A DNA stretch of 32,224 nucleotides from Bacteroidota bacterium (lineage in GTDB: Bacteria; Bacteroidota; Ignavibacteria; Ignavibacteriales; Ignavibacteriaceae), in NCBI GenBank assembly GCA_023475265.1, contig JAMCWE010000011.1, positions 1 through 32,224 of the forward strand. Reading direction: 5' to 3'. A program made the position numbers and the translations under genes. The notes beneath the pieces are model-generated. The model did no database searches, was not told the DNA's origin, and was given only the letters and a program-made list of their open reading frames with translations. Positions 448 through 8,931 of this stretch are shown here, piece after piece. Position 1 is the first letter of the stretch. Each line of letters opens with the position of its first letter.

Positions 448-720
448 ATGCCAATTATAAAACCGATTTCTGATTTAAGAAATAAATCTAATGAAATTTC
501 AGAGCTTGCTAATAATTCTAATGAGCCAATATTTATTACAAAAAACGGAGAAGGTGATTTAGTAGTAATGTCTATGGCTCATTATTCCAATATTCAATTA
601 AAACTTGATTTACTTAGCAAATTGGCTGTTGCGCAAAAACAAAAATCCGAGGGTGACAAAGGAAAAACTCTGAAACAAGTAATGTCCAATATTAGAGAAA
701 CAATTAATGCCAATAGATAA
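448..720 (+). CDS. Phd/YefM-family antitoxin
   Basis: A 90-residue antitoxin of the Phd/YefM type. The N-terminal segment MPIIKPISDLRN...ISELANNSNEPIFITKNG...VVMSMAHY is the typical Phd/YefM DNA-binding fold: an early PISDLR-like strand/helix, then PIFITKNG and a VVMS strand. The C-terminal tail (about residues 55-90) is charged and lysine-rich and would be the toxin-neutralising part. Such antitoxins bind the toxin and repress their own promoter. The gene has a good promoter and RBS and overlaps the downstream toxin gene by 14 bases, so the two are translationally coupled. It is the only gene pair in the left array on the plus strand, so its cassette is inverted relative to its neighbours. 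Family assignment is confident; the exact named type (relB, yefM or phd) is not. Confidence 0.85.
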   Translation: MPIIKPISDLRNKSNEISELANNSNEPIFITKNGEGDLVVMSMAHYSNIQLKLDLLSKLAVAQKQKSEGDKGKTLKQVMSNIRETINANR

Positions 721-1015
721 ATATCAAGTTCGACTGCTTAGTATTGCGGAAGAAGATTTTGCAGAAATTATATCATTCATTGCAGCAGACAATCCAACTG
801 CAGCAGATGCAATTGCAAACAAAATTGAAAAAAACTTAGAATCATTATCAAAAAATCCAAATCTCGGTAGAATTCCAAGAGAAGAAGAACTAAGGAATTT
901 AGGTTACAGATATTTGATAGTCCAAAATTATCTTATTTTCTATACAATAGAAGAAAGAACAATTTTTATTCATAGAATCCTACACGGAGCTAGAAACTAT
1001 AAATCACTTCTCTAA
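707..1015 (+). CDS. RelE/ParE-family toxin
   Basis: A 102-residue toxin of the RelE/ParE superfamily, downstream of and overlapping its antitoxin. Visible family features are the N-terminal VRLLSIAEEDFAEIISFIA helix pair, the central helix NKIEKNLESLSKNPNLGRIPREEELR, and the C-terminal strands YRYLIVQNYLIFYTIEERTIFIHRILHGARNY, where the IHRILHGARNY ending is diagnostic. RelE-like members cleave ribosome-bound mRNA while ParE-like members poison gyrase; sequence alone does not decide between them. The length is normal. Its TAA stop overlaps a CTCTAAC motif (1010-1016) that forms one end of attC-like site B, a common arrangement in cassettes. Confidence 0.87.
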   Translation: MPIDKYQVRLLSIAEEDFAEIISFIAADNPTAADAIANKIEKNLESLSKNPNLGRIPREEELRNLGYRYLIVQNYLIFYTIEERTIFIHRILHGARNYKSLL

Positions 1016-1031
1016 CCAATTAGCAATAGTT

Positions 1032-1284
1032 ATGGTAGGAATGCCTGTTACCAGACATCCCCCACACAGATCCCGGCGTGCAGTATTACCGCACCGGGCT
1101 CCTCAATGATACTCGTTTCCGCATTGAGCAGAAACATTATTTAATATTCCTACCTTGTTACTATTACTCGCAGTGAGGTTTGCATTAGTTATTTCGTCAT
1201 AACATTACGGTTAATGTTTCCTTTGCAAGTTACGTATCACTGTCAACTCCTTCCCCTTGCCTGCAAGCCGAAGCTTTGCGTAGG
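1032..1284 (-). mobile_element. Group II intron remnant with domains V and VI, no ORF
   Basis: Read on the minus strand, 1101-1069 folds as a canonical domain V: it starts GAGC (the AGC catalytic triad), has the arms GAGCCCGG/CCGGGATC, and an upper TGC/GCA stem with a CG bulge. Domain VI follows (ATGTCTG-GTAA-CAGGCAT, about 1058-1041), ending near TCCTACC. Upstream, CTCAATG/CATTGAG (1103-1129) forms a short stem where domain IV would be, and further upstream are GGAAAC-type segments fitting domain II/III. The whole element is only about 250 bp, so domain I and the reverse-transcriptase ORF are missing. It could still be mobilised in trans by a related intron such as the one at 1-189, but more likely it is dead. 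The exact ends are uncertain. Confidence 0.6.
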
Positions 1285-1358
1285 CGTGTGGCTAAGGCGC
1301 AGCCCCAAACTACAATACCGAACTTGTTAAACAATTTTTATAATTACAAAAAACTTTT

Positions 1359-1575: not shown

Positions 1576-1854
1576 TTATAATATTCTAAGACTAAGTTTT
1601 TTCCCTACTGCTTCCAAATATTGTTTTAAAGTTGAAAGACGCATATCCTCTGAATGATTTTCTATTCTCGATATTGCTGATTTTTTTGTCCTTAACTTTT
1701 TGGCTAATTCTTCTTGTGTAACTCCGGCTTCTTCTCTTGCCTGCTTTAGTAGTACTCCAATTTTGAAGTTCTCATATCCTTCTTCAAATCCTTTTGCAAA
1801 TTTTTTATCCTTTGCTTTACGTTTTGATATATATATTTCTAAATCATCCATCAT
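1576..1854 (-). CDS. higA: HigA-type helix-turn-helix antitoxin
   Basis: A 92-residue XRE-family DNA-binding protein. Residues about 35-85 ([20 protein letters not shown] ... [34 protein letters not shown]) form a standard HTH_3 domain, with the recognition helix around [11 protein letters not shown]. The N-terminal part is charged. The gene lies directly downstream of a Gp49/HigB-like toxin ORF with a 4-base overlap (toxin stop, antitoxin start), the toxin-first order typical of higBA. It would bind and neutralise the toxin and repress the pair. Its stop codon lies just before the right core of attC-like site B, so this is the 3' gene of a minus-strand cassette. Intact in length. Confidence 0.82.
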
Positions 1855-2198
1855 TTTTTCCTCTCGTAATATTCTTTTTTCCTTTGTTTCGCTAATTCGA
1901 TTTCTTTTCCCGGTGTCTTCTGAGTCTTCTTTGAAAATGCATTTGTAAAGATTATTTTATTTGATTCATAGAAACCAAGAAATCTAAAAATATTGTTTCC
2001 AAATTGAACTCTAATTTCCCAAATATCATCAGAGTTTTTTAATTTTTTCAAGTATTCTTCGGGAACCCTTTCTAAATCTCTGACTAATCTTAATGTCCAA
2101 GTTACCTTTTTTGATTCCTTTACATTCAGAGAATCAATAAATTCTGCAACTGGTGAATGCCCGCTTGATGTCTTATAAAATATTATTTCTTTTACATC
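1851..2198 (-). CDS. higB: HigB/Gp49-type toxin, start codon disrupted (probable pseudogene)
   Basis: The open frame codes for a phage-derived Gp49/HigB-like protein (RelE superfamily, mRNA interferase). Family motifs are [18 protein letters not shown] near the N-terminus, [22 protein letters not shown] in the middle, and [19 protein letters not shown] followed by [15 protein letters not shown] at the end. A full-length protein of about 115 residues needs a start near 2198. There, on the minus strand, the sequence reads ATGATG then TA then AAAGAAATAATA. The two ATGs are in another frame and stop at once, while the coding frame has no ATG, GTG or TTG before codon 50 (TTG at 2051). A 2-base insertion or 1-base deletion after ATGATG would explain this. 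A start at 2051 would remove the N-terminal half, so the toxin is probably inactive unless the sequence has an error. Confidence 0.65.
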
Positions 2199-2253
2199 AT
2201 AAGGTGAACATATTTGTGAACATTAACAATAATATAAACTCACTACTTTTGGT

Positions 2254-2757
2254 GGCTAACGATTTCTATCTTACTTATAGTTAATTAAAAATTAAATATT
2301 GTGCCTTTTTACCCCGCATTGCGGCGGCCTGCTTTCATGAGTAATTTTTGTTTAACCAAACCAAAAATATTTAGGAGTATTATTATGAACTCTAAATCCC
2401 TCGAAGCTAAAAGGCACTTTATAAACGGCAAAACTATTATCTGTATTTACCCGGCTAAGGAATATTTATTACTATTGCCGTGGCGTTTACGCCGTGGGTA
2501 AAATACCAAAACCATTCCTCCGGCTTTAGCCTCATTTTCTATGCGGCTGAAGCCTTTGCTGTTTTACTTCTTCTTTCCCGCGCCTTACCCGTCTCGCCAC
2601 GGCAAGCCGGGCGGAAAAGACGCGGCTATATTTATTTTTTAAGAACTATTTTTTACAAAACATTTTGTCTTGGGATAATACCTGTCCGTCCTTTGGCGGA
2701 TTATCCTATTGCCTGCCCCGCACTGCGGGGACTCTTTACTTATTAAAGAGGTTAGTC
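2254..2757. repeat. attC-like site C, long and hairpin-rich
   Basis: The ends are GGCTAAC (2254-2260) and GTTAGTC (2751-2757), seven bases outside the HepT stop codon. Its left 85 bp (CTAACGATTTCTATCTTAC onwards, through TTGTGCCTTTTTACCCCG and GCGGCGGCCTGCTTTCA) is repeated almost exactly at site D and in shortened form at site E. Its right end (TTTACTTATTAAAGAGGTTAG) recurs at site E. The 500-bp length is unusual for attC. The middle is full of GC-rich palindromes, for example around GGCGTTTACGCC, GGCTTTAGCC and CCCCGCACTGCGGGG. The two plus-strand ORFs crossing it look non-coding. The arms beside the cores pair only weakly. Confidence 0.4.
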
Positions 2758-2763
2758 CTTGTT

Positions 2764-3108
2764 TTATATTTGTTTGATAATTTCTTCTACTTGAACTTTA
2801 AGTTTTGGTAAATCTACTTGTAAAATATCCCAAACTATTTTTGTATCTATTCCAAAGTATTCGTGAATTAATATATTTCTCAAGCCAACTATTTCTCGCC
2901 ACTTGACTTCTTTATATAATTTCCTAAAATGTTCGGTAAGTTGATTTGATGCTTCGCCAATTATTTCTAATTGTTTTACAGTAGCAAACTGCATCATTGA
3001 ATTGGATTGAAAATCTTCATAGGAGCTATTTGAAATATAATTCTCAATTTCTTTAATAGCTTCAGCGATATGTTGAAGTCTTGCTCTATCCCCAAGTTCA
3101 CTTTTCAT
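2764..3108 (-). CDS. hepT: HepT-type HEPN toxin (DUF86)
   Basis: A 114-residue all-helical HEPN-domain protein. The defining RX4HXY motif is present near residue 77 onwards as RNILIHEY, the putative RNase active site. The preceding KQLEIIGEASNQLTEHFRKLY and KWREIVGLR segments are typical of HepT/DUF86 proteins. In this family the partner MntA silences HepT by adding AMP to the tyrosine of the motif. The gene overlaps mntA by 11 bases on the same strand, in the usual order (nucleotidyltransferase first). The stop codon is seven bases from the core end of attC-like site C, so the pair behaves as one cassette. Length and motifs are intact. Confidence 0.88.
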   Translation of the reverse strand: MKSELGDRARLQHIAEAIKEIENYISNSSYEDFQSNSMMQFATVKQLEIIGEASNQLTEHFRKLYKEVKWREIVGLRNILIHEYFGIDTKIVWDILQVDLPKLKVQVEEIIKQI

Positions 3109-3388
3109 AAATTAATATTTTATCTTGGTTTATATATGGCTGGATATATTTCGAAACTCCTTTGCTTGAAAGTAAGTCTACTTTTTTATTTAGTATTTCT
3201 TCAAGCTCGAGTTGCATCTTAACAAACTCTAAACCAATTGGTTTCGAATAATCTAATTCAACCAAAATATCAATGTCACTATTTATTTCAGATTCGTTCC
3301 TTGCTTCTGAGCCGAATAAATATGCACGCAAAACGGGTTTACTTCTGAAAAAAACTTTTATTTGTTTTTTAATATTTCTATTCATCAT
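3098..3388 (-). CDS. mntA: MntA-type minimal nucleotidyltransferase antitoxin
   Basis: A 96-residue minimal nucleotidyltransferase. It carries the hallmark GSX10DXD motif (GSEARNESEINSDID, about residues 26-40) and a third acidic residue downstream (NKKVDLL). The N-terminal FFRSKPVLRAYLFGSEARN is typical of MNT proteins. MntA transfers AMP from ATP to the HEPN toxin encoded next to it and so neutralises it; such pairs also act in phage defence in some bacteria. The first codons read MM; either ATG could start. The start is followed upstream, after about 70 AT-rich bases, by the core of attC-like site D. All catalytic residues expected of an active enzyme are visible. Confidence 0.88.
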   Translation of the reverse strand: MMNRNIKKQIKVFFRSKPVLRAYLFGSEARNESEINSDIDILVELDYSKPIGLEFVKMQLELEEILNKKVDLLSSKGVSKYIQPYINQDKILIYEK

Positions 3389-3455: not shown

Positions 3456-3715
3456 GCCTAACGATTTCTATCTTACACAATAATTAATTAAAAATTAACT
3501 ATTGTGCCTTTTTACCCCGCATTGCGGCGGCCTGCTTTCAAGAGTAATTTTTGTCTGCCCGACACAGGCAGTTACCAAACCAATCATATTTTAGGAGAAC
3601 AATTATGTACTCTACCGCCTTCGACAGGCTGCATCGAGCCGGTGAATATTATTCTTTTTCTCCGACTTGACTTTTAACTTATCTGTCCCGCTTTGATGGA
3701 TTAAAGATGTTAGGA
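3456..3715. repeat. attC-like site D
   Basis: The ends are GCCTAAC (3456-3462, an exact RYYYAAC match) and GTTAGGA (3709-3715). The first 85 bases repeat the left part of site C (ACGATTTCTATCTTAC, then TTAATTAAAAATTAA, TTGTGCCTTTTTACCCCG and GCGGCGGCCTGCTTTCA), with only a few changes. The right part (CGAGCCGGTGAATATTATTC, then CTCCGACTTGACTTTT) is shared with site E. The interval lies between the thsB2 stop and the mntA start and holds no credible gene. Confidence 0.45.
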
Positions 3716-3744: not shown

Positions 3745-4353
3745 TTATTTCTGTTTTGTTAACTTGTAACCGTCCACATTTTCGCTTTTTTCGTATGCAT
3801 TCTCAATAAATTCCTCATACTCTTTTAGAAATTTTTCTTCTTCAACATAAGATATATAGGAACCTGTCAAGGTATTAACAGTTTTGCAATTATTGCAAGA
3901 AAATACTTTGGGATTCTGATTGTATCTGTTCTTACTAATGATATCATAAACTAACTTTTCGTAATAGGATGAATATGAACATCCATCAGTTTGCTTATTA
4001 GTAGATTTGAACCATCCATAACCCTTATTTACTTTTTGAATTACTCCAACAATACCGTTCGTCTTTGACGATCTTTCTTTCCGGGTTATTTCTTTTAAAC
4101 AGTATTCGATTTCCCAATCAATCCATTTGCTTTGTTTGATGTGGGGAGAAATGATAACAATTGTAACTGATGTATTATACATCATATCGGTTAAATTTTT
4201 TTTGATGTTTTCTGTTGAAGTATCAGTTAGGTCAGGGGAATCACTTGTTTCCCCCTGATAATAAGCTGCATCGTCGCCCAAAGTTTCAAGAATTGTGTCG
4301 CGAAGGTCTTGCGCTTCGCTGTACTTGTATGAAATAAATGTTTTTCGTGCCAC
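3745..4353 (-). CDS. thsB: Thoeris ThsB-type TIR-like protein (second copy, with C-terminal extension)
   Basis: A 202-residue protein of the ThsB/TIR-like (DUF1863) family. The N-terminus MARKTFISYKYSEAQDLRD, the VTIVIISPHI strand and the WIDWEIEYCL helix (candidate catalytic glutamate E81 or E83) match the TIR-like fold of ThsB. In Thoeris, ThsB senses phage infection and makes a cyclic ADP-ribose isomer from NAD that activates ThsA. The start codon is GTG (4351-4353), with GAGAGG eight bases upstream. It follows thsB1 by 70 bases on the same strand. Unlike the first copy it has a C-terminal extension of about 60 residues with a CNNC pair (C153, C156). Only the N-terminal half resembles thsB1, so this is not a recent duplicate. 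Divergent ThsB copies are known to widen the range of phages sensed. Confidence 0.82.
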   Translation of the reverse strand: MARKTFISYKYSEAQDLRDTILETLGDDAAYYQGETSDSPDLTDTSTENIKKNLTDMMYNTSVTIVIISPHIKQSKWIDWEIEYCLKEITRKERSSKTNGIVGVIQKVNKGYGWFKSTNKQTDGCSYSSYYEKLVYDIISKNRYNQNPKVFSCNNCKTVNTLTGSYISYVEEEKFLKEYEEFIENAYEKSENVDGYKLTKQK

Positions 4354-4423
4354 TATTTTCCTCTCTTTCTATTAGATCTACTTTTTATAATGGTATCTAT
4401 CAAAGTAATGTTAGCTGATTTTC

Positions 4424-4870
4424 TTATTTACCGGCATTCGTAGCTGCTTCTTCGATTCTTTTACTAAGTGTTTCGTGGTCGACATATTTATAAACTTTAT
4501 AATTATTCGCAGTTAGTTTATAGGGTGTATCACCAGCAGAATCGATTGTTCCATCTTTGTCCTTTAAATGATGTATCTGAATACCAACAATTCCATTCCC
4601 TCTCTTTATGGATTCTTCTATTTCATAATTGATGAATTTTCTTCCAGCAGTTTTTTCTCCAATACATACAACTGTTACACTTGTATTTTCGAGACCCTTG
4701 TCAATCAATTTCTTTATAGAATTATCACCCTTCTTCTTTGCTTCTTCCCAAAGAGATGCATCTTGGAAACCAGCCGCCGAACAACCAGTAATATTTGGAA
4801 TACTCCGAATTTGATTTACACGCCAAATATCTCTTTGATAATGAAAACTAAAAAATACTCTTCGTGCCAT
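4424..4870 (-). CDS. thsB: Thoeris ThsB TIR-like cADPR-isomer synthase (first copy)
   Basis: A 148-residue protein with the signature ThsB N-terminus ARRVFFSFHYQRDIWRVNQIR, then TSVTVVCIGEKTAGRKFINYEIEESIKRG. The last segment carries the candidate catalytic glutamate (E83 or E85) of the TIR-like NAD-processing site. By family knowledge it is the infection sensor that converts NAD into a cyclic ADP-ribose isomer to switch on ThsA. An excellent RBS (AGGAGG, six bases before ATG) precedes it, stronger than any other in this module. It begins 14 bases after the thsA stop, so thsA-thsB1 are an operon. The protein is slightly shorter than many ThsB proteins, but the core fold appears complete. Confidence 0.88.
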   Translation of the reverse strand: MARRVFFSFHYQRDIWRVNQIRSIPNITGCSAAGFQDASLWEEAKKKGDNSIKKLIDKGLENTSVTVVCIGEKTAGRKFINYEIEESIKRGNGIVGIQIHHLKDKDGTIDSAGDTPYKLTANNYKVYKYVDHETLSKRIEEAATNAGK

Positions 4871-4884
4871 TGTAACCTCCTAAA

Positions 4885-6312
4885 TTAATTAAGATATTCT
4901 TTTGTCTCTGAAGTAATTATTTGGACAATTGATCCAATAATTTCTTTGGTGTTTTTTGAGTTTTGTAAGACCTTTAAATATTTTTTTAAGTATGGATACT
5001 TTTTTATATCTCTTTTAATTTCATCAAATATTTTTTGAGCTGCAAATCCAGTCGAACCGATAGGAATAATAATTAGATCTTTGTCTTTTGCAATTTCATA
5101 TTCGCGATATACACCGTTAGCATCAATTATTTTCTCATCTTCTCCTTTTTTATTACCAAATAAGAAAATTGCAATTCCACATTTAGATATCATTTCTTGA
5201 CGATATGATTCCCACAGTTCTGAAAGTTTTATTCCTCCGCTCGATATTTGAGGAAATGGTTTCAATTCCAAGTAATCAGCAGAATTACCAAATTTAGATT
5301 TATAAATTTCTGATAAGGCACCATTTATAACAATGCTTCCAACGCCTAGTCCAAAACCAGTAACTATTTTAAATTCGCTCTTGATTAATTGTTCGGATAA
5401 CTTATGCATAAGTTCAATGGCATTTTTGTAATCCCAATCCTCATAACTTTCCGCACTTCCAGATATAAATACTTTATTTAAGTAGTAGAGTTTTTCAATA
5501 TCAGCGAGTATTTCATCAATTTCATCATAACTATCGACTAATACAGAAAAGATTGAATATCTTTTTAAATCTTTAATCCTTAATTCTTGTTTAACTTGAG
5601 CATACTTAAAATCTTGAAGTTTATCAAAATCTTTTCTATTAACCCTTTTGAAAAAAGCAAAATGTTCTCGGGTATTTTCACCTAATAAAATTCTTATTCT
5701 ACTTAAAATATATTCAAGGTTTGGGTCCTCAAAGCTAAAGCCAATAAACAAAAACGTTTTAGAAATTAAATCTCCTTGTAACGTTGTAGTAAATAGTTGA
5801 CGTTTTAAATTATATGATTCATAGTCATCTTTTGTAACTACTGCAGAACTTGGATGATTAACGTCGCCGTGCATTTTATATACAATTACATCTGTTTTAG
5901 GTTTATTCGTTGCTAAATTTTCTTGTGTAATTTTAACATCAATTTTCTTGTTCGCGTTTATTAAAGCTTCTTCTATTAGTTGGTCGTAGTTTGTAGTCCA
6001 ATACCATTTAATAGGCAATCGAGTGAGTAATAGGTGTTTGTTATTCAGTTTAATGTCTTCTGTAAAATGTTCTATTATTTCTTGATTTATAGTCGCCCTA
6101 CCTATCCTTTCATTTTTATGATATTGTGCAACTGCAACTAAATCAGTTTCTTTTTTTATATCTAAACCAATATCCTCAGCAATTTCTTTTAGAAGTTCTT
6201 TCCAATTCACCATACCACTTTCTACAGACAAACCAGCTCCCGCAAAAAGGGCGGCATTATTATCAAGTAATGCCTTCAAATATTTTTTTTTGAATTCTTT
6301 CTGAGTAATCAT
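4885..6312 (-). CDS. thsA: Thoeris ThsA, SIR2 NADase with SLOG sensor domain
   Basis: A 475-residue protein with the two-domain layout of type I ThsA. Residues 1 to about 275 are a SIR2-like NAD-hydrolysing domain: ALFAGAGLSVESG nucleotide-binding loop (22-33), WTTNYDQLIE with N108, and VYKMHGDVNHPSS with H148. N108 and H148 are the positions expected for catalysis, and FLFIGFSFEDPNLEYIL closes the fold. Residues about 280-475 are a SLOG domain (VFISGSAES, IVTGFGLGVGSIVING, IAIFLFGNKKG), which binds the signal made by ThsB. When activated it depletes NAD and aborts infection. Length agrees with characterised ThsA proteins. It starts 35 bases from attC-like site E and is followed by two thsB genes, so a complete Thoeris system is present. 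Confidence 0.92.
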   Translation of the reverse strand: MITQKEFKKKYLKALLDNNAALFAGAGLSVESGMVNWKELLKEIAEDIGLDIKKETDLVAVAQYHKNERIGRATINQEIIEHFTEDIKLNNKHLLLTRLPIKWYWTTNYDQLIEEALINANKKIDVKITQENLATNKPKTDVIVYKMHGDVNHPSSAVVTKDDYESYNLKRQLFTTTLQGDLISKTFLFIGFSFEDPNLEYILSRIRILLGENTREHFAFFKRVNRKDFDKLQDFKYAQVKQELRIKDLKRYSIFSVLVDSYDEIDEILADIEKLYYLNKVFISGSAESYEDWDYKNAIELMHKLSEQLIKSEFKIVTGFGLGVGSIVINGALSEIYKSKFGNSADYLELKPFPQISSGGIKLSELWESYRQEMISKCGIAIFLFGNKKGEDEKIIDANGVYREYEIAKDKDLIIIPIGSTGFAAQKIFDEIKRDIKKYPYLKKYLKVLQNSKNTKEIIGSIVQIITSETKEYLN

Positions 6313-6346: not shown

Positions 6347-6489
6347 AGCTAACGATTTCTATCTTACTTATAGTTAATTAAAAATTAACTATTGTTCCTT
6401 CTTGCCCCACACTGCGGCGGTCTGCTTCGAGCCGGTGAATATTATTCTTTATCTCCGACTTGACTTTTTACTTATTAAAGAGGTTAGGC
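6347..6489. repeat. attC-like site E
   Basis: The ends are AGCTAAC (6347-6353) and GTTAGGC (6483-6489, an exact core match). Its 143-bp length falls in the normal attC range. It shares the CTAACGATTTCTATCTTACT start with sites C and D, CGAGCCGGTGAATATTATTC with site D, and the TTTACTTATTAAAGAGGTTAG end with site C. It sits between the thsA start and the stop of the 309-aa gene, which ends only three bases from the core, as cassette genes often do. Arm pairing near the cores is weak, so this is supported mainly by the cores and by recurrence. Confidence 0.5.
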
Positions 6490-6492
6490 ATT

Positions 6493-7422
6493 TCAATCAT
6501 TATTTTTTGCCTTCAGTTGTTTTAACTCTTTATACTCGAGCAATAAATCTGTTTTTGAAATCTCGATTTCTTGTTCTGCAACCACTTTAGGAACAAGATT
6601 CAAATCAAGTAAATCATTTATTCTTGTCTTGATTGTATGTACCAATGTTTTCGCTTCATCACTATTAATAACACTTTTTTGTTCGTATTCTTTAATCTTT
6701 TCCAACACATCAAGATTCTCAAGTAAAGATTGATTCTCTATTCTACTTTTATAATGTTTTTTGTTTATCAACCAATCCCATATTTCCTTAAAAGCAAGAA
6801 ACAATGATTTTGCTACTTCGGCTGTAGTCTTTATACCGATATTAGTATTGCTTCCACTATCTAAAAGGGTAATTATAGCTGGTTCACATGGTGTTTGGGG
6901 GTTGTGTCCTTTGCTAATGGCAGTCATTAATTCATCCAAAAGATTAAAAATCTTTGAATATAAGTTTATATTAAGATTACTATCCGAAAATAATTCAAAA
7001 ATAATAATTCCGTCTTCATAGTTATCATTATAATTGTTTTCTTTTTCTTCAAAAAATAATTTTTGCGATGCAAAGTATATTTTATCTAAAGCTTGATGAA
7101 AGCAATAAAAATCATATACTATTTTATTATAATAAATACCGTAGGTGTCTCTTTTGCTTAAAAAATTGTTAAGAAGGTCGGAAATGTATTTTGATTCATA
7201 TAGTGGCGTACCTCCCAAAGTTTCAATTATTTTATTTGCATCAGATTCTTCAATAATCCTATCAAAATTACTTTTTGATTCCATTATCAAAGAAGTTAGA
7301 TTTCTCCCGTCATAATTGGCAACATTTGTTTTTAGAGATTCATTAAATATTTTTAACAATGAATCTGTCTTAAGTTTATCTCTAACAACATCAACTGCCT
7401 TCGTAAAATCTAATTTTTGCAT
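6493..7422 (-). CDS. Hypothetical 309-aa protein in its own cassette next to Thoeris
   Basis: I do not recognise a family. The protein is acidic to neutral, apparently mostly helical, without a signal peptide or membrane segment, so probably cytoplasmic. It has a helical N-terminal part (MQKLDFTKAVDVVRDKL), a glutamate- and asparagine-rich middle (EEKENNYNDNYEDG), a GHNPQTPCEPAI stretch near residue 170, and a long charged C-terminal helix ending EIEISKTDLLLEYKELKQLK. A GAGGT ribosome-binding site precedes the ATG by about seven bases. It is flanked by attC-like sites E and F and lies just upstream of Thoeris in the same direction but separated by a site, so it is a separate module. A defence or stress role is only guilt by association. 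Confidence 0.75.
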   Translation of the reverse strand: MQKLDFTKAVDVVRDKLKTDSLLKIFNESLKTNVANYDGRNLTSLIMESKSNFDRIIEESDANKIIETLGGTPLYESKYISDLLNNFLSKRDTYGIYYNKIVYDFYCFHQALDKIYFASQKLFFEEKENNYNDNYEDGIIIFELFSDSNLNINLYSKIFNLLDELMTAISKGHNPQTPCEPAIITLLDSGSNTNIGIKTTAEVAKSLFLAFKEIWDWLINKKHYKSRIENQSLLENLDVLEKIKEYEQKSVINSDEAKTLVHTIKTRINDLLDLNLVPKVVAEQEIEISKTDLLLEYKELKQLKAKNND

Positions 7423-7447
7423 ATCTATTACCTCGAATAACTTGAAT

Positions 7448-7675
7448 GCCTAACTATTACTTATACTGCAAGTGATTAGTGTCTTTGGATTATAGATATG
7501 CATGTGCCTGCATATCTATATTCCGGTTTCTTAAAAAAACAATTAAATTTCATAACATTTAAAAATATCCTCTGCTTATCTATCATCCTGAAAAAAATAT
7601 TTCTCTTCGGTTTGTTCTCATCGCAGCTCGCCCAATTCACATTCCCTGTCATCATTTTGCATAGTGGCGTTACAC
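7448..7675. repeat. attC-like site F
   Basis: GCCTAAC (7448-7454, exact RYYYAAC) and GTTACAC (7669-7675) bound 228 bp. The flanking arms show partial pairing: ACTTATACTGCAAGTGAT on the left against the reverse complement of ATCATTTTGCATAGT on the right. It is the last candidate on the right; no integrase gene lies beyond it in the window. The following stretch to 7893 is AT-rich and shows no gene. Confidence 0.35.
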
Positions 7676-7893: not shown

Positions 7894-8598
7894 TCATTTC
7901 GGAGGTTCCGGCGCCGCCGGGGGAGTTTCATCTTCCCCGCCGTTATGATTTCCGCCGAGATTCTTTACCACTCGTGCTGCTTTATATTTATTATAAAAAT
8001 CCACATGATCGTCATGCGTACACTCAGCTATTGCATCAAGATGGATTGTTAAAATTTCATGTGTCTTTTCCAGTTCCTTATTTAACGACATCCATAATGA
8101 ATTGCGGTTTGTAAAGCCCGTACTCTGCTCGTCTTCCTTTCCATGCAGCAAATCTAAGTTGGCTTTTATCCCGTCTAACTTTTCAGTCGTTATTTTATAT
8201 TTTCCAAGCGGTGTTATATTGTCATAACCTGCTTGCAGTATTACCCCCGCACCTTCTATAAACTTTTCTTCCCTTAATTTTTTTAATTTACTGTCAGTCA
8301 TGGAAACCAATGCTTTAAGCTTTTCATCTGAAAGCTTGTGCGAAATTGAAAACAACGCCGCTTTTACAGGATGAATACCGTTAAAGACTGCTTCAAGGGC
8401 ATCATGCTTTGCCTTCGTTAATCCCTTGGTTGCTTTTTCGTATTCCATGTTAAGCCTTTTTACTTCTGCAATAGAAGCCCCAAATAAAGGAATAAACTCG
8501 CCGAATGCTTCAAATTCTGCTGTAACTGTAGGTTCGCTTTGAAGCATTGCATAAACAGTTTTTTCCATTTCATAATCATTAAATTGACTGTTTGTCAT
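7894..8598 (-). CDS. Hypothetical 234-aa protein with Pro-rich C-terminus
   Basis: Family not recognised. The protein is mostly helical with many Lys/Glu pairs, no signal peptide and no membrane segment. Visible features are an N-terminal helix (NDYEMEKTVYAMLQSEPTVTAEFEAF), repeated charged helices (KRLNMEYEKATKGLTKAKHDALEAVF; MTDSKLKKLREEKFIEGAG), a segment with clustered His/Asp (ECTHDDHVDFYNKY), and a low-complexity tail GGNHNGGEDETPPAAPEPPK. Codon use is less AT-biased than in the cassette genes to the left. The remarkable context is the upstream DNA: a regular tandem array of 20-21 bp units at 8710-8931 lies about 110 bases before the ATG. The array may control this gene, but that is inference. 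Confidence 0.7.
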   Translation of the reverse strand: MTNSQFNDYEMEKTVYAMLQSEPTVTAEFEAFGEFIPLFGASIAEVKRLNMEYEKATKGLTKAKHDALEAVFNGIHPVKAALFSISHKLSDEKLKALVSMTDSKLKKLREEKFIEGAGVILQAGYDNITPLGKYKITTEKLDGIKANLDLLHGKEDEQSTGFTNRNSLWMSLNKELEKTHEILTIHLDAIAECTHDDHVDFYNKYKAARVVKNLGGNHNGGEDETPPAAPEPPK

Positions 8599-8709: not shown

Positions 8710-8931
8710 TAAATCTCATTTTTCGAAAAAATATCCGGCATTTCCACGTTAAATTCTGCCGTTTCTTTATTAAACCCGGTATTTCTTTTTTTAATCTCGC
8801 ATTTCTATTCTTAAATCCGGCATTTCTAATTAAAATCTCTCATTTCAATAAAAAACCCGGCATTTCTATTTTGAAACCTCGCATTTCTTTTTTTTATCCG
8901 GGATTTCAAATTTTTTTTTTGGCATTTCAGA
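8710..8931. repeat. Tandem array of 20-21 bp units with alternating core
   Basis: On the minus strand, a unit GAAATGCCGGRTTT plus six or seven A/T bases is repeated about eleven times. On the plus strand the ATTTC segment recurs near 8737, 8758, 8778, 8798, 8819, 8839, 8859, 8880, 8900 and 8921, a spacing of 20 or 21. Units alternate between a CCGG core and a CGAG/GAGAG core, giving a 41-bp higher-order period. More decayed units may extend down to about 8655. The period is close to two DNA helical turns, so the conserved boxes and A/T tracts lie on one face. It is not coding: the period is not a multiple of three. It is not a CRISPR, as there are no unique spacers. Confidence 0.8.

Follow-up and report, generated by a model that had tools for sequence, protein, structure and literature searches.

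The contig JAMCWE010000011.1 of a Bacteroidota bacterium from the family Ignavibacteriaceae (assembly GCA_023475265.1) was analysed over its entire length of 32,224 bases, hereafter termed the window (contig C156 of a 4.77 Mb genome held in 270 contigs). At positions 3745-6312 the minus strand carries three complete open reading frames (ORFs), none of them interrupted, that make up a thsA-thsB-thsB operon of the type I Thoeris anti-phage system. Counted on the minus strand from an attI-like site, the operon stands second in an array of integron type. The system is very probably intact and is proposed to have come to this position as a cassette through an integron of the lineage, with insertion sequences of the IS110 family later eroding the neighbouring attC sites.

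A complete type I Thoeris operon

The first gene of the operon, thsA (4885-6312, minus strand), encodes a 475-residue protein with an SIR2 NADase domain (N108, H148) and a STALD/SLOG sensor domain (R371, K388, E404). It is followed after 14 bp by a thsB of the class related to BcThsB and EcThsB (class a) and, after a further 70 bp, by a second thsB related to BdThsB1 (class b). The original prediction of a complete type I Thoeris system with two divergent ThsBs was borne out, as Pfam, PADLOC, structural alignments and AlphaFold2 models all agree. ThsA matched the Pfam families STALD (1.2e-71) and SIR2_2 (1.1e-31), and the ThsBs matched ThsB_TIR (1.6e-24 for class a, 1e-12 for class b), all above the curated cut-offs. 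In PADLOC each protein was matched over nearly its full length (1.2e-195 for ThsA, 6.1e-57 and 3.7e-83 for the ThsBs), placing the 475-residue protein within ThsA and not outside it. Judged on sequence, the Pfam and PADLOC scores leave no room for chance.

ThsA residues 7-465 align with the Bacillus BcThsA structure 6lhx (E 7.2e-129). N108 and H148 correspond to N112 and H152 of BcThsA, the SIR2 pair whose mutation is reported to abolish cleavage of nicotinamide adenine dinucleotide (NAD+) (PMC7272460). R371, K388 and E404 correspond to R371, K388 and E403 of BcThsA, residues to which ligand-binding roles in the SLOG domain are assigned (PMC10022894, PMC7272460). Both ThsA domains named in the original prediction are thus present, with the residues that align with BcThsA. 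Membership of Thoeris is secure from sequence and, for the two ThsBs, from predicted fold, and the operon is a further member of this well-studied type I family.

Two classes of ThsB

The class a gene (4424-4870, minus strand) encodes a 148-residue TIR protein that aligns with BcThsB (1.1e-31) and with the EcThsB structure 8wcf (8e-19). Its candidate catalytic residue, E83, aligns with E85 of BcThsB, and neither E83 nor F6 varies among the 32 class a sequences compared, a hand-picked subset of the matches. The class b gene (3745-4353, minus strand) starts with GTG and encodes a 202-residue TIR protein, in which E81 and F6 are invariant across 35 of 35 class b sequences; that alignment was also hand-picked and lacks three strong matches (L088, L096 and the second copy in L098). 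Each ThsB therefore keeps the candidate catalytic glutamate that had been proposed for it. Prediction of both structures is consistent with these assignments. The AlphaFold2 models, with a mean predicted local distance difference test score of 84.1 for class b and 83.6 for class a, match the solved BdThsB1 structure 9vyl (class b; template-modelling score TMq 0.83, E 2.8e-14) and the EcThsB structure 8wcf (class a; TMq 0.81, E 4.3e-12), with 6lhy also matched by class a.

The view that the second ThsB shares only an N-terminal fold did not hold. Residues 1-201 match the PADLOC profile PDLC00428 and residues 1-200 align with 9vyl (8.1e-17), which is titled BdThsB1 with NAD in the structure library, so that the whole length of the protein corresponds to a known ThsB class. 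The C-terminal part, which had been described as an extra tail carrying a CNNC pair, is typical of this class; the CNNC pair is real, while its tail is standard in BdThsB1-type proteins and not an unusual addition. Because a CxxC is found at the CNNC position in only 9 of the 35 aligned class b members, the window protein included (counted by eye), the motif marks a subset of the class and is not a class requirement. Metal binding by these cysteines is possible. The genome contains a third ThsB_TIR match (31.7 bits) at positions 17939-18172 of contig C200, within a frame of 389 amino acids; this contig differs from the one bearing the only ThsA match of the genome (the genome is G000 in our set).

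Thoeris loci in other genomes

An alignment scan of named species genomes, made with two ThsA peptide patterns, returned 226 ThsA relatives, of which the best 80 were examined. As many contigs end near the operon, the ThsB counts per locus are lower bounds. Using profiles built from sequences of this analysis and including weak matches, at least two ThsBs were found in 31 of the 80 loci, one in 47 and none in 2. When matches were restricted to at least 100 bits on the operon strand, 20 of the 80 loci held at least two ThsBs and 17 held both classes, the latter including records from Clostridiaceae and Chitinophagales; these two counts indicate that a pair of ThsBs is an ordinary arrangement. 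As to the search proposed at the outset, for the same thsA-thsB-thsB block between attC sites in other genomes, thsA with both ThsB classes recurs, and among the 80 loci an attC beside the operon was accepted for L067, which has a single ThsB (see below).

Few members of the lineage carry the system. At E<=1e-40, ThsA was detected in 2 of 97 related genomes, one being the source genome itself and the other belonging to a different family; in a phylum sample of 395 genomes the class b ThsB family reached E<=1e-20 in 3, again including the source genome. This rarity points to a horizontal arrival of Thoeris. At two loci, contig C46 of genome G106 (L057:5824-8336) and contig C1 of genome G266 (L058:7080-8332), a class b ThsB adjoins a SLOG-like protein (by eye) and no ThsA is present among the ORFs listed; the G106 locus also encodes a ThsB of class a plus a further TIR-like protein, and its contig ends close by.

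Proposed mechanism and roles of the two ThsBs

The residues and predicted folds for each enzymatic step of type I Thoeris are present. By close homology, phage infection would activate one or both ThsB TIR proteins, which would convert NAD+ to a cyclic ADP-ribose isomer. Binding of this product to the SLOG domain of ThsA would then lead the SIR2 domain to destroy NAD+, killing or arresting the cell and so stopping phage production. The locus most likely encodes a working abortive-infection system in an array that has been stranded.

How the two ThsBs might share the task of sensing admits two explanations. The first, favoured in the original prediction, is that they are independent sensors, each producing the signal when different phages infect; we give this an even chance. 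It is consistent with the retention of Phe6 and the catalytic glutamate in both proteins, with the difference between the classes and with the fact that each class also occurs singly with thsA; the 47 loci with one ThsB match, ThsB number being a lower bound, comprise both class a and class b cases. A retained glutamate is nevertheless no proof that the activity is needed: in a study of Staphylococcus aureus Thoeris, those changes to the active site of ThsB1 that were tested are described as leaving immunity undisrupted (PMC12578639). The second explanation, by analogy with that system, is that the ThsBs may form one co-sensor, one binding the phage trigger and recruiting a catalytic partner. 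The S. aureus study describes such a unit: binding to the major head protein is the part of ThsB1, which in turn activates ThsB2, and the active pair of ThsB2 is numbered E81/F6, the same positions as in the class b ThsB of the window (PMC12578639). The recurrence of both classes together in 17 of 80 loci fits a co-sensor, which would then be a reasonable contender, if somewhat behind two independent sensors. Set against it are the loci in which each class stands alone with thsA, and the ThsB1 of S. aureus, which must be longer than either window ThsB since its glutamate is given as residue 318 (PMC12578639).

An integron-type array without an integrase

The array begins at the attI-like site AAGTAATAGTTAGGCAT (7446-7462, minus strand), whose 17 bases are identical to a site located after intI on another contig of the genome, C134. 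The match has a BLAST E of 0.13 by itself, is supported by its position relative to a homologous flank, and is attI-like by sequence only. The flank comprises a gene at 7894-8598 (minus strand) that is homologous to the gene upstream of the C134 intI (82.7% over 75 bp, E 1.8e-16), and a spacer common to both contigs (66.7% over 126 columns, E 5.8e-10). The distance from the spacer match to the attI-like site is ~1.26 kb in C134, where it includes intI, versus ~140 bases in the window. The gene at 7894-8598 would thus mark the same platform as in C134, minus intI. The window yielded neither an integrase nor a remnant of one (best E in tblastn 0.78), and three integrases exceed the family cut-off on other contigs of the genome. 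With no integrase in cis and, on the reading proposed here, eroded attC sites nearby, re-mobilisation of the operon would depend on an integrase encoded on another contig and may be hampered. The genes upstream of the two arrays both have a GGxHNGGED-like C-terminus (window 7894-8598; L016:10444-11145, the C134 locus), and short repeats lie near both (window 8711-8914; L016 11433-11729).

After the attI-like site the units are, in order, an orphan gene, Thoeris, a MNT/HepT pair, an HTH/HigB-like pair, a reversed YefM/ParE pair and a group II intron. The first unit (6493-7422, minus strand) encodes 309 amino acids with no match in Pfam (E<=0.1) or PADLOC, and its start and end could pair over 10 bp, a feature of gene cassettes. 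The third and fourth units, assigned with Pfam, are the MNT/HepT toxin-antitoxin pair (2764-3388, minus strand) and a helix-turn-helix antitoxin with a Gp49/HigB-like toxin (1576-2222, minus strand). The Phd/YefM-ParE toxin-antitoxin pair (448-1015, plus strand) is reversed in the array. Two attC sites of canonical type are found farther along on the minus strand. The site at 1265-1562 carries the canonical L-box motif of this genome (arm pairing p 0.098; GTTA end not seen), and beyond that at 180-385 (arm pairing p 0.028) lies a group II intron truncated by the contig end. The intron matches RF02005 at 1-153, GTGCG standing directly after the attC CGCCGTTA at 193 on the minus strand (by eye). 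A second match, to RF00029 at 1029-1103 near the attC of 1265-1562, is sub-threshold (37.3 bits against a gathering score of 40). The two intron matches (1-193 and 1029-1290, minus strand) resemble the group IIC introns that target attC sites.

Other integron arrays of the genome hold further units. On C134 the first unit is a UG34-type defence reverse transcriptase (L016:7236-8873, minus strand; PADLOC 6.4e-165) and the third contains an Abi_C domain (L016:5215-6099; 8.3e-12). A unit of the C232 integron (L018:2946-4731) encodes a type II methyltransferase (PADLOC 6.4e-131), adjoined by a 292-residue protein that has no family match and may be its restriction partner.

Borders of the Thoeris unit

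The operon is bordered by two copies of a repeat on the minus strand, one upstream of thsA (6347-6489), with GCCTAAC and GTTAGCT ends, and one downstream of the class b thsB (3456-3715), with TCCTAAC and GTTAGGC ends. In a third copy (2254-2757, minus strand), codons 1-25 of an IS110 transposase are retained (2385-2459, plus strand). The R box of attC has the consensus RYYYAAC/GTTRRRY; CTAAC and GTTAG cores are present at both Thoeris-flanking repeats, TCCTAAC and GTTAGCT each being one base off the consensus. With no constraint on the bases that follow, the 8-base repeat arm occurs at 31 places in the 18 sequences searched, of which 14 are in repeat context as judged by eye. All 14 copies in repeat context have [AG]TT[AG] three bases past the arm (GTT in 12), compared with 0 of the 17 other places, and AAC precedes 10 of 12 five-prime arms in repeat context.

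The stem of an attC site is another matter. An arm-pairing test was run on 14 places that were picked by eye and not by blind scan. All nine places chosen on contigs C134, C232, C54 and C178, which bear integrases, passed it (p 0.004-0.034); unpaired C and A bases within the paired arms, which are typical of attC, were seen at these nine sites. A search combining a regular expression with folding found no attC sites in the window, and this search missed most of the sites later accepted. A stricter blind scan found none in the window, in L003, in L019 or in the seven congener and G050 loci scanned, and found sites in L016 (two places beyond the three arm-tested) and L018 (three places).

Several observations weigh against a simple cassette history. 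End-to-end arm pairing is absent at 6347-6489, 3456-3715 and 2254-2757 (p 0.53, 0.58 and 0.11, respectively). Folded as a single DNA strand, 3456-3715 is more stable than expected (z -3.05, 0 of 200 shuffles as good) but forms several local hairpins, and 6347-6489 folds no better than shuffles (z -1.36, 18 of 200 as good). The attI match is short, and both canonical-type attC sites of the window pair weakly. The ends of the Thoeris unit share only CTAAC (5 bp), compared with 10 bp in the first unit, and a history of Thoeris as one circularised cassette is for that reason weakly supported. Ordinary attC sites were rejected as an explanation of the repeats, since the attC stem is absent. The attC-like flanks reported in the original prediction are therefore real as repeats, present in three copies with R-box-like ends, and are not canonical attC sites, as the L-box stem is missing and their sequence is in part associated with IS110.

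IS110-family sequence in the repeats

The IS110 association is evident from a congeneric genome, G009, that encodes a full-length IS110-family transposase (DEDD_Tnp_IS110, 2.4e-23). The region upstream of this gene matches pieces of all three window repeats, with 84-96% identity over 25-106 bases. The match reaches the interior of 3456-3715 (81 bases) and of 2254-2757, and at 6347-6489 covers only 26 bases at the GTTA end, though this repeat resembles the other two. The 25 transposase codons kept in 2254-2757 are 88% identical, and no full DEDD transposase is present in the window. In G050, from another family of the same order, a 64% identical transposase has the same end sequence directly beside a cassette-opening GTTA, and the cassette that follows has a canonical-looking attC (by eye). 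We read these data as indicating that IS110-type elements entered attC sites here and then decayed, a reading that does not account for the loss of the L boxes or for the position of both surviving ends right against R boxes. In G009 the repeat has 13 matches (13 of 45 candidates scored), and no integrase was detected at E<=1e-40; on contigs C82, C83, C105, C125 and C136 (L041-L045) several repeats stand between toxin-antitoxin-like units and near contig ends.

The same data could mean that the flanking repeats are dispersed IS110-derived elements unrelated to integrons, and that the operon was never a cassette. This would account for the lack of an attC stem, for the 25-106-base pieces shared with the transposase upstream region, for the abundance of the repeat in G009, where integrase was not detected, and for the 2 of 12 five-prime arms that lack AAC. 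It sits poorly with the invariable [AG]TT[AG] after the arm in repeat context and its absence elsewhere, with the AAC before most five-prime arms, with the G009 arrays in which repeats are mixed with canonical-looking attC sites (by eye), and with the attI-like site and canonical-type attC that bound the same array in the window. We consider it unlikely. A bolder proposal, that the interval separating the attC R boxes is occupied by an IS110-type element or a shortened form of one, giving the genus a second kind of cassette border that is still mobile, seems more doubtful again. If it were true, Thoeris and other multi-gene defence units, as well as toxin-antitoxin units, could still be moved at such hybrid sites by a trans-acting integrase or by the IS110 transposase itself.

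Thoeris as cassette cargo

The clearest evidence that Thoeris can be integron cassette cargo is the thsA-thsB operon of L067, from an Ignavibacteriales metagenome-assembled genome (JAFGID010000113.1), because it sits in an integron setting. Here thsB is followed directly by an attC-like site whose arms pair, and its 3' end, GGTTAAGCAAATGTTAGGTGGA, recurs at the close of the stretch that precedes thsA. Upstream of this cassette, positions 1-60 of L067 read KIRDLKRYGIDF (by eye), which is ThsA-like, as if a cut-off thsA-type unit lay there. A blind attC scan of the 80 Thoeris loci gave 18 matches, most of which are one place on both strands, against 5 in shuffled sequences, and only the L067 match adjoins the operon with the unpaired bases of a classic attC. 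A site of this type lies ~4 kb from thsB in an Aliivibrio locus (L117). Inverted repeats near the operon in L085, L121, L122 and L137 were not accepted as attC, and scan matches in L102 and L107, which fall elsewhere than at the operon, were not counted. Short recombinase-like C-terminal pieces occur upstream of Thoeris in L097 and L110; no attC was seen there by eye and these loci were not used. A literature search on Thoeris and integrons, with thin coverage of subscription journals, brought up no description of a Thoeris cassette, though one may be in print.

The view that the operon forms one mobile cassette is plausible but unproven. It survives in modified form, drawing on the attI-like site, the canonical-type attC farther along the array, the integrases elsewhere in the genome and L067, while the canonical flanks first envisaged do not stand. 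We propose that the operon arrived as a cassette through an integron of this lineage, and that IS110-family elements would later have entered and eroded the neighbouring attC sites. That the operon is a decayed relic, as an array with eroded borders and no integrase in cis might suggest, is very improbable given three open frames that keep the catalytic and ligand residues and the class-wide invariants.

Comparison with known systems and significance

The window operon shares the catalytic and ligand residues of the SIR2-SLOG ThsA with the Bacillus type I systems (BcThsA/BcThsB, 6lhx/6lhy; BdThsB1, 9vyl), which provide a solved relative for each of its ThsB classes; it differs from them in having both classes in one operon and in its integron-array context. 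The S. aureus system (PMC12578639) likewise combines one ThsA with two TIR sensors and has the E81/F6 numbering of the class b ThsB, a likeness of residue numbers, although its ThsB1 is larger. The L067 operon, whose ThsA is 53% identical to that of the window, is likewise in an integron setting, but has one ThsB; a canonical attC lies downstream of it, and upstream, a short way from the contig end, there is a matching attC 3' end. Phage defence libraries are reported in the integrons of Vibrio and in mobile integrons, as cited in PMC12444791, and in these the defence genes are likewise cassettes; the window differs in that its system has three genes and its array has IS110-associated borders and lacks an integrase of its own. 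Elements of IS110/IS1111 type sited at one end of attC form the IS1111-attC group (PMC11187229). Compared with that group, the window keeps only upstream sequence and 25 codons, the full-length transposases being found in G009 and G050.

The array context adds moderate interest to an otherwise familiar system, and the hybrid borders are its newest and least understood element. The setting links Thoeris as integron cargo with the other defence genes in the integron arrays of this genome, which include a UG34-type defence reverse transcriptase, an Abi_C-domain protein and a type II methyltransferase, and with insertion sequences that rewrite cassette borders. It raises the question of whether a stranded array may still be able to release a three-gene immune system, given an integrase elsewhere in the cell.

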